Source: an uncultured Clostridia bacterium (lineage in GTDB: Bacteria > Bacillota > Clostridia > Oscillospirales > Feifaniaceae). From it: a DNA stretch of 64,000 nucleotides. Shown piece by piece: positions 30,303-32,443 of the stretch. The stretch spans positions 124,001-188,000 of the forward strand of contig CALWCA010000004.1 in NCBI GenBank assembly GCA_944376235.1, in the 5' to 3' direction. The notes under the pieces are model-generated. The model ran no database searches. It was not told the DNA's origin and saw nothing but the letters and a program-made list of their open reading frames with translations. Positions within the stretch are counted from its first letter, which is position 1; the number at the start of each line of letters is the position of its first letter. Made by a program: the position numbers and the translations under genes.

Positions 30303-31160
30303 TTATTTTTGGAGACTGGCGCTGCCCTTTGCGATAAAGGCAACCCCTATCACGCCGGGACCGGTGTGGGCGCCGATGGCGGCGCCGATACTGCCCCGGT
30401 AAACGGGCATGCCGCCCAGGTGGGGCCGGATGTATTCCAGATAACGCTCAAGACGCTCGGGTGCGTCGGCGTGGGCGAAGGCGATGCCGTAGGCCGGGTC
30501 GGGGTTGCCCTTTTGAATCAAATCGAGCAGGGCCTTTTTTCCGGCCTCCTCCCCGCGCACCTTGCCGACCGGCGCAATGGCGCCCTCCTGCAGGCACAGG
30601 ATGGGCGTGATGCCCAGCGCCCCGCCCAGCAGCGCGGCGGCGGGGCTCAACCGGCCGCCCATTTTGAGATACTTCAGGGTGTCCACCACGGCAAACAGGC
30701 GCAGCCGGGACGTCAGGGAGGTCAGCTCCTGTGCGATGTCGGAGGCAGAGCGCCCGGCGTCGCGCAGCTTGACGGCGTGACGCAGCAGCAGAGCCGTGCC
30801 GAAGGAGCCCGACAGGGAGTCCACCACATGAATGCGCGACGCGTCAAGCGACTGCGCGGCAATGAGCGCCGAGTTCATGGTGGCGCTCAGCTTGGAAGAC
30901 ACCGTGACCGCCACGATGTCCTCCCCTTGCGCAAGGTGGCGGGAAAAAACCTCCTCAAACTGCATGGGGTTGGCCTGGGAGGTGGTGGGAAGCTTGTCGG
31001 CGCTGCGCATTTTGGCGTAAAACTCCTCGTGCGTGAGGTCAAAGCCGTCGAGGTAGGAGGCCCCCTGAAATTGGATGGTCAAAGGGACGCGGTCGATGCC
31101 CAGCGCCGCACACTCCTGCCCGGAAAGGTCACAGGTGCTGTCTGATACAATAGAAATCAT
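30303..31160 (-). CDS. DegV family fatty-acid-binding protein (FakB-like)
   Basis: A 285-residue protein with the DegV pattern: VSDSTCDL at the start, GFDLTHEEFYAKM, PTTSQANP, the VSSKLSATMNSA segment, and the C-terminal IGAAIGAHTGPGVIGVAF. DegV proteins bind a fatty acid; the FakB members present it to the kinase FakA for incorporation into phospholipid. No FakA is in this window. The gene overlaps the upstream marR by 4 bp (ATGA), so the two are translated together. This pairing, plus FabT-like operators in the promoter, points to exogenous fatty-acid use. Function beyond lipid binding is inference. Confidence 0.9.
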   Translation of the reverse strand: MISIVSDSTCDLSGQECAALGIDRVPLTIQFQGASYLDGFDLTHEEFYAKMRSADKLPTTSQANPMQFEEVFSRHLAQGEDIVAVTVSSKLSATMNSALIAAQSLDASRIHVVDSLSGSFGTALLLRHAVKLRDAGRSASDIAQELTSLTSRLRLFAVVDTLKYLKMGGRLSPAAALLGGALGITPILCLQEGAIAPVGKVRGEEAGKKALLDLIQKGNPDPAYGIAFAHADAPERLERYLEYIRPHLGGMPVYRGSIGAAIGAHTGPGVIGVAFIAKGSASLQK

Positions 31161-31660
31161 GATGTAGTCTCCTTGCTTTGCTGATGATTTTGATGGTCAC
31201 GGGTACGCGCGTTCTGTTCCAGACGGAAAAATTGGCTCAGCCGGTCAAGCGCGCGCATGAAAACCACCGTCTCCTCCTCGCTCAGAAGATCGAGCACCTG
31301 GTCGGTCATGCGGCGGTGAAACAGGGCGTGGTCGGCGTTGGCTGAGAGCCCCTTCTCCGTGGGAGAGATACGCACAACGCGCCGGTCGAGCGCGTCGCGG
31401 CTGCGCGTGAGGTAGCCCTTTCGCTCCAGGGCCGCGGTGGACACGGTCAGCGTGCCCGGCACGACGTCAAGCAGGGCCGCAATGTCGCTGGCCGTGTTTT
31501 TCCCCTTTTCGGCGCACTGGCACACCGCTTCAATCACATGCAGCTCGCGGATGGACAGATCCGTATGGCCGCTTTGTGTGATGCAGCGTTCCTCCGTTCG
31601 CAAAATCTCGTTGAAAATTTCCACGAGAAACCGGTTGAGAATTTCATGGTCGCAGGACAT
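31157..31660 (-). CDS. MarR family transcriptional regulator (FabT-like candidate)
   Basis: A 167-residue winged-helix regulator. ATG 31660 follows GGGAGG; earlier in-frame Met codons lie upstream of the operator. The MarR pattern is clear: LSIRELHVIEAV, helix-turn-helix TASDIAALLDVVPGTLTVSTAALERKGYL, and the wing SRDALDRRVVRISPTEKG. It is the first gene of an operon with a DegV/FakB protein. Its promoter is bracketed by two TTTGA-N3-TCAAA palindromes, the half-site arrangement known for FabT, the lipid-responsive MarR repressor of streptococci. Autoregulation is likely; the ligand (acyl-ACP or similar) is a guess. Confidence 0.87.
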   Translation of the reverse strand: MSCDHEILNRFLVEIFNEILRTEERCITQSGHTDLSIRELHVIEAVCQCAEKGKNTASDIAALLDVVPGTLTVSTAALERKGYLTRSRDALDRRVVRISPTEKGLSANADHALFHRRMTDQVLDLLSEEETVVFMRALDRLSQFFRLEQNARTRDHQNHQQSKETTS

Positions 31661-31678
31661 GCGGCACCTCCCAAAAAG

Positions 31679-31740
31679 TTTGAGGTTCAAAGAGATTATA
31701 GCGGGGCCCAATGTCCTTGTCAAGTGTTTTGAAGTTCAAA
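31679..31740 (-). promoter_or_regulatory. marR-degV promoter flanked by two palindromic operators
   Basis: The minus strand carries a fully consensus promoter: TTGACA (31723-31718), 17 bp, TATAAT (31700-31695). Palindrome 1, TTTGAAGTTCAAA, is at 31728-31740 just upstream of the -35; palindrome 2, TTTGAGGTTCAAA (one mismatch), is at 31679-31691 over the transcription start. Their centres are 49 bp apart. A consensus promoter clamped by two operators is a classic repressible design. Confidence 0.88.
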
Positions 31741-31951: not shown

Positions 31952-32443
31952 ATGAACAAAAAGAGACGGGCAGCCACGGCGGCCGTGGTATTGCTTTTAT
32001 GTGCGGGGTATCTTTTTTATACGAGGCCTGTGGCGCTGGGTCAGATATATCCCATGCTGGAGGCCGGCGAGTGTGTCGGGATATCCGGGTTTTTCAGCGT
32101 CGGCTCACAGGAGGAGCGGTCGGAATTTACGCTCACGCAGGACAGTGAGGCCTTTGAAGAGGTGCTGGGACTGCTGTATGACTGCCGGTATCGCCGCACA
32201 TTGAGAGATCTTCTGGTTCACGGCACGCGAACCCATGCGGTGCAGCCGGGGGATTTTCAGTGGGACCTCTGGCTTGCGTTTGAAGGGGTGGAGCTGCCGG
32301 ACGGCGGCGTTGGCTCGGGGCCCATGCTGCACGTCCAGTACTGGTACGGGGAGCTTGACTTCCATTTTAACGGGCAGACGCGTTCCTATCGGGCAAAGGA
32401 CGAGACGACCTGGGCGGCTGACCTGCTGGAGGCCTTTGGATAA
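31952..32443 (+). CDS. Unknown membrane-anchored or secreted protein
   Basis: A 163-residue protein behind AAAAAGGAGGGG. Residues 1-6 are basic (MNKKRR) and 8-24 hydrophobic (TAAVVLLLCAGYLFYT), a signal anchor or uncleaved signal peptide, so the rest should lie outside the membrane. The remainder contains aromatic-rich strands (DFQWDLWLAF, LHVQYWYGELDFHFNG) suggesting a small beta-rich domain. I do not recognise the family. It has its own candidate promoter and a terminator, so it is monocistronic. Confidence 0.7.
   Translation: MNKKRRAATAAVVLLLCAGYLFYTRPVALGQIYPMLEAGECVGISGFFSVGSQEERSEFTLTQDSEAFEEVLGLLYDCRYRRTLRDLLVHGTRTHAVQPGDFQWDLWLAFEGVELPDGGVGSGPMLHVQYWYGELDFHFNGQTRSYRAKDETTWAADLLEAFG

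Follow-up and report, generated by a model that had tools for sequence, protein, structure and literature searches.

The DNA binding of FabT, a repressor of the MarR family, is strengthened by acyl-ACP (PMC9083066; PMC13046290). The fabT gene typically heads an operon under its own control and overlaps or abuts the next gene (PMC13046290). In E. faecalis, PlsX is needed for co-repression by FabT, and loss of the PlsX pathway blocks repression (PMC9083066). The fak genes of E. faecalis are not under FabT (PMC12594616). FabT regulates the fakB4 gene of S. pyogenes, which carries the site ATTTTGATTATCAAA and is unlinked to fabT (PMC10138225). In cells that synthesize fatty acids, FabT control of a fakB gene has been described as perverse, since the fatty acids would prevent their own utilization (PMC12594616). 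A search of the open-access literature yielded no account of a fabT-fakB operon, and this agrees with a statement in an earlier, sequence-only reading of the present DNA that no MarR-FakB operon with such a layout was known. Within that literature the layout reported here is apparently new, and the FabT-regulated, unlinked fakB4 of S. pyogenes is its closest precedent (PMC10138225).

The window, that is, the whole stretch of 64,000 nucleotides of clostridial DNA that was analysed, contains a marR gene followed by a degV gene, with the following features:

30303..31160, minus strand: degV, FakB-type fatty-acid-binding protein, 285 aa
31157..31660, minus strand: marR, FabT-like repressor, 167 aa, ATG start
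31679..31691: putative operator O2, TTTGAACCTCAAA, 3 bp downstream of the -10 element
31695..31700, minus strand: -10 element TATAAT, perfect consensus (from the sequence)
31718..31723, minus strand: -35 element TTGACA, perfect consensus (from the sequence)
31728..31740: putative operator O1, TTTGAACTTCAAA, 4 bp upstream of the -35 element

Both reading frames are intact, and a ribosome site, GGGAGG, lies ahead of the marR ATG. As the sequence-only reading had described and the sequence confirms, the two genes overlap by 4 bp (ATGA), and their promoter, with a spacer of 17 bp between the hexamers, lies between two perfect TTTGA-N3-TCAAA palindromes whose centres are 49 bp apart. O2 overlies the likely transcription start. 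A divergent open reading frame of 163 aa (31952-32443, plus strand) has a signal-like start and is conserved in Candidatus Galloscillospira excrementipullorum; a search for a family match to it gave none.

Neither protein reaches the cut-off of its curated equivalog model, and they are for that reason named FabT-like and FakB-type. The best curated model for the MarR protein is NCBIfam FabT (NF050133), at 116.6 bits against a cut-off of 200 bits; three other members of its subfamily (L044, L051 and L053) score 121-130 bits with the same model and cut-off. Its best match among solved structures is the FabT-DNA complex of S. pneumoniae, 6jbx (37% identity, 143 columns, 1.5 A). The AlphaFold model (pLDDT 91) has a winged-helix fold, again with 6jbx as its best match, and the positions common to classical FabTs (E39, H41 and H115) are kept. 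In a tree of 28 regulators, whose bootstrap had not fully settled, the subfamily forms a clade (93/98) separate from the classical FabTs of fab operons. Thus, the MarR is FabT-like and a member of a sister subfamily rather than FabT proper, and the earlier claim of FabT likeness is upheld by sequence, curated model and predicted structure. Other MarR-domain matches in the window's genome revealed no second FabT; one adjoins ABC exporters and one is AsnC/Lrp-like, and both were rejected as FabT candidates.

Like the FabTs of S. pneumoniae, E. faecalis, S. pyogenes and L. lactis, this regulator has the MarR fold and is accompanied by the TTTGA-N3-TCAAA core (ANTTTGATTATCAAATT). Also like them (PMC13046290; PMC10138225), it is encoded by the first gene of an operon and overlaps the next gene, with autoregulation predicted here. 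It differs from them in that a fakB-type gene is the only other gene of the operon, fab genes were not found, PlsX is missing and the score falls below the FabT cut-off.

The DegV protein scores 275.9 bits with the DegV model, above the cut-off, and 121.6 bits with the FakB1 equivalog model (NF038249), below its cut-off of 350 bits. Its AlphaFold model (pLDDT 90) matches fatty-acid-loaded FakB structures, with TM values of about 0.8-0.89 to 1pzx, 4x9x, 5uto and 6dke and 23-29% identity in the structure alignments. In S. aureus FakB1, Thr62, Ser95 and His270 form the carboxylate network, Arg173 is the latch and Arg205 contacts FakA (PMC8892158). In the alignment these residues correspond to T60, S92, H265, R170 and R202 of the window's DegV, whereas Ser171 of FakB1 is replaced by Gly. 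The fold and the carboxylate pocket, latch and FakA-contact residues are therefore shared with FakB1 of S. aureus and S. pneumoniae, and the low identity, the Ser171 replacement and the linkage to a regulator set the protein apart. The earlier proposal that the DegV is FakB-like, which had been made to depend on the pocket residues, is borne out by the fold and by the retention of those residues; the protein is best classed as FakB-type, not FakB1 proper. In three other marR-linked DegVs (L047:6447-7283, L051:6469-7308 and L053:6445-7293) the FakA-contact Arg, Arg205 of FakB1, is Lys or Gln, and two of the three head fab operons. These proteins may not work with FakA.

The fatty-acid gene content was surveyed in four draft genomes of the genus, 93-98% complete (the window's own, G000, with G002, G003 and G004). 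FabF was absent from all four. In the window's genome FabH was not found, FabD and FabZ gave no match and free AccB was absent, the only biotin domain lying within a 1157-aa open frame. The same genome retains FakA (G000:C4:19858-20505, 254 bits), three DegVs and PlsC. ACP is encoded by a single gene in every genus genome, with the DSI serine motif present in the window's genome, and the three sister genomes encode PlsY. The simplest reading of this draft-genome gene content is that the organism is a fatty-acid auxotroph that uses scavenged fatty acids. A dependence on exogenous fatty acids, here deduced from gene content, would be shared with Lactobacillus johnsonii, which also lacks FASII and for which, unlike the window, no FabT-fakB operon is described (PMC11625735). 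Although no other FASII enzyme was found, three members of the genus retain a FabK-like (or nitronate monooxygenase-like) protein (G000:C1:56224-57132, L083) that shares about 47% identity with FabK of G006.

The window has two exact TTTGAN3TCAAA sites, where shuffling predicts 0.02, and the assembly as a whole (1.54 Mb, 92.7% complete) has three. The genome scan for the palindrome proposed earlier thus yielded one further exact site, but this lies within the murD coding sequence, and no exact operator was present near fakA, acpP, plsC or the other two degV genes of the window's genome. Sites with one mismatch were not significantly enriched in the window (3 versus 1.4 expected), and genome-wide there were 57 against about 35 expected when the window shuffles were scaled. 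Most of 12 such sites inspected fall within reading frames, and a regulon built on one-mismatch sites is not proposed. A genome-wide fab regulon was also rejected for the window's genome, where no fab operon genes were found and the exact sites are confined to the marR-degV promoter and the interior of murD. The sequence-only reading had suggested that the MarR controls unlinked fab genes; this fails in the window's genome because FabH, FabF, FabD, FabZ and AccB were not found there.

The nearest named record is that of Ca. G. excrementipullorum (Oscillospiraceae), in which the MarR is 89% and the DegV 95% identical to those of the window. It has the same operators and promoter hexamers as the window, with a changed spacer between the hexamers. 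Such conservation, together with the two intact frames, speaks against the pair being a relic of a lost fab operon, kept by drift and with no current function. The loss of FASII would fit a relic, as would the absence of the MarR from two of the four genus genomes, and this explanation is nevertheless considered very improbable.

When about 85,000 species genomes were searched with a profile of the subfamily, 17 loci were obtained. The marR-degV layout recurs across Clostridia, with pairs in L043, L044, L047, L048, L049, L050, L054 and L057, and also in L051 and L053. The order operator, -35, -10, operator is found in G000, L043, L044, L045, L051, L053 and L059, with gaps of 4-7 bp and 2-19 bp; O1 has the same position in L043, L044 and L045 and is slightly shifted in L051, L053 and L059. 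An exact site is present in 13 of the 15 usable upstream regions of subfamily regulators, the window included, against 0.045 expected from shuffles. The two exceptions, G010 and G016, each have a solitary subfamily regulator, and their exact operators precede a distant fabH operon. In L053 (Caproiciproducens faecalis) and in L051, from another clostridium, two operators precede the series marR-degV-fabH-(acpP)-fabK-fabD-fabG; in L055, marR and a divergent fab operon have the operators between them. G006, from the same family as the window, has the fab-operon operators TTTGATTATCAAA and TTTGATAATCAAA. The earlier claim that the operators are of FabT type therefore holds, and they are common to the fab operons of relatives. 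In a tree of DegVs the marR-linked proteins form one clade (93/96) against four unlinked DegVs, and the pair has therefore been inherited together. Taken together, this comparative evidence indicates that the marR-degV pair belongs with fatty-acid synthesis in relatives and was left over or moved in this genus. One locus, L045, has a solitary subfamily marR (L045:503-1003) with both operators around a perfect promoter and no adjoining degV; its genome is 1.3 Mb and lacks FabF.

Members of the MarR family commonly respond to small aromatic or lipophilic compounds. The locus could accordingly be an ordinary self-regulating MarR-DegV pair unrelated to lipid status, in which, for example, the MarR answers a toxic lipophilic compound and the DegV is a binding protein. 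This is improbable, as this regulator and these operators are found at the head of, or facing, fab operons in L051, L053, L055, G010 and G016, and FabT is the nearest family of the MarR.

FabF is missing from seven of 18 genomes searched (G000, G002, G008, G009, G012, G014 and G021) and present in 11; G021 is the same organism as G007, the genome of which is 75% complete, and the locus-derived genomes lack completeness figures. Three FabF-positive genomes (G011, G013 and G018) carry a detached marR-degV pair and a fab operon elsewhere, so that a strict link between the operon and the loss of FASII was rejected and the pair is not tied to that loss. A gene for a long-chain acyl-CoA ligase (L044:4139-5857, plus strand) follows marR-degV in an Oscillospiraceae genome that lacks FabF, and it is possibly a third member of the circuit.

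The locus is probably an autoregulated FabT-type fabT-fakB operon that survived the loss of fatty-acid synthesis and now provides feedback control of scavenging. This reading draws on the order of the genes, the operators, the layout of the promoter, conservation, the absence of the pathway, the predicted fold and the residues of the pocket; that the MarR binds DNA and represses, what its ligand is and in which direction it responds are predictions. As the synthesis pathway is gone in the genus, feedback control of scavenging is the role that would remain. By analogy with FabT, the most likely mechanism is that a MarR dimer occupies O1 and O2, on either side of the promoter, and represses both marR and the fakB-type gene. 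FakB would take fatty acids from the membrane and hand them to FakA, which would make acyl-phosphate for phospholipid synthesis. Plentiful activated acyl chains would then lower FakB, and scarce ones would raise it.

PlsX was absent from all four genus genomes and present in the four other genera of the family. According to gene names read from translations, G007 has the order trmFO-plsX-acpP-rnc, whereas the window's genome reads trmFO-acpP-rnc and so lacks plsX at the usual position between trmFO and acpP (L068 8299-8380). The whole genus is thus without PlsX but with ACP, PlsC and FakA, the last of these checked in the window's genome. With PlsX missing, the known route to the FabT co-repressor must differ here, and either another enzyme would charge ACP or the MarR would read another signal. 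It is possible, though less likely than not, that a FabT-type repressor of this same operon senses a signal that is not made by PlsX, such as free fatty acid, acyl-phosphate, loaded FakB or acyl-ACP from an unknown ligase. The circuit would still tune uptake, perhaps in the opposite direction, with fatty acids as inducers. The absence of PlsX from the genus, and of plsX from its place in the window's genome, would fit such a signal, as would a search of G000 and G002 that yielded no long-chain acyl-CoA ligase and the blocked FabT repression of E. faecalis (PMC9083066). However, every genus genome has kept the single ACP gene, which in the window's genome retains the serine motif. The cell may therefore still contain acyl-ACP, and the MarR keeps the three positions common to classical FabTs. 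The broader suggestion, that a FabT-type regulator kept its operators and lost its old targets after the loss of FASII and PlsX, becoming a dedicated scavenging controller with a signal other than PlsX-made acyl-ACP, is likewise put forward tentatively.

The recognition helix of the MarR lies at 68-80, and residues 69-72 fall in the pattern G[TS][LV][TS]. Regulators with this type of helix accompany TTTGAN3TCAAA, whereas no exact sites were found with classical FabTs reading [PS][ST][VT]T (G001, G005, G011, G018 and G023) or with an ASLT pair (L056 and L058). The fab operons of G011, G018 and G023 have their own classical FabT and no exact operator. A two-by-two test of helix type against exact site gave p = 3e-6 for 17 versus 7 related regulators, counted by eye and post hoc, with L052 and L059 included despite aberrant or unread helices. 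For these reasons, the possibility that helix type predicts operator type is offered as a lead only. Clostridial fab operons with classical FabT genes (promoters L070, L072 and L073) have diverged, TAG/CTAA-like operators, not TTTGAN3TCAAA, and two FabT-type circuits may therefore be insulated within one cell.

The operon resembles fakB4 of S. pyogenes in having a FakB-type gene with a FabT-type operator (PMC10138225). In S. pyogenes fakB4 is unlinked, FASII is complete and FakB4 is believed to have no part in bulk uptake, whereas here the genes overlap and FASII is gone. In a cell unable to make fatty acids, a fabT-fakB operon would amount to ordinary nutrient-uptake feedback. The system would be suited to asking how regulators survive the loss of their own pathway, and it bears on how gut bacteria meter lipids and on the ligands of FabT-type repressors when the known co-repressor route is missing.
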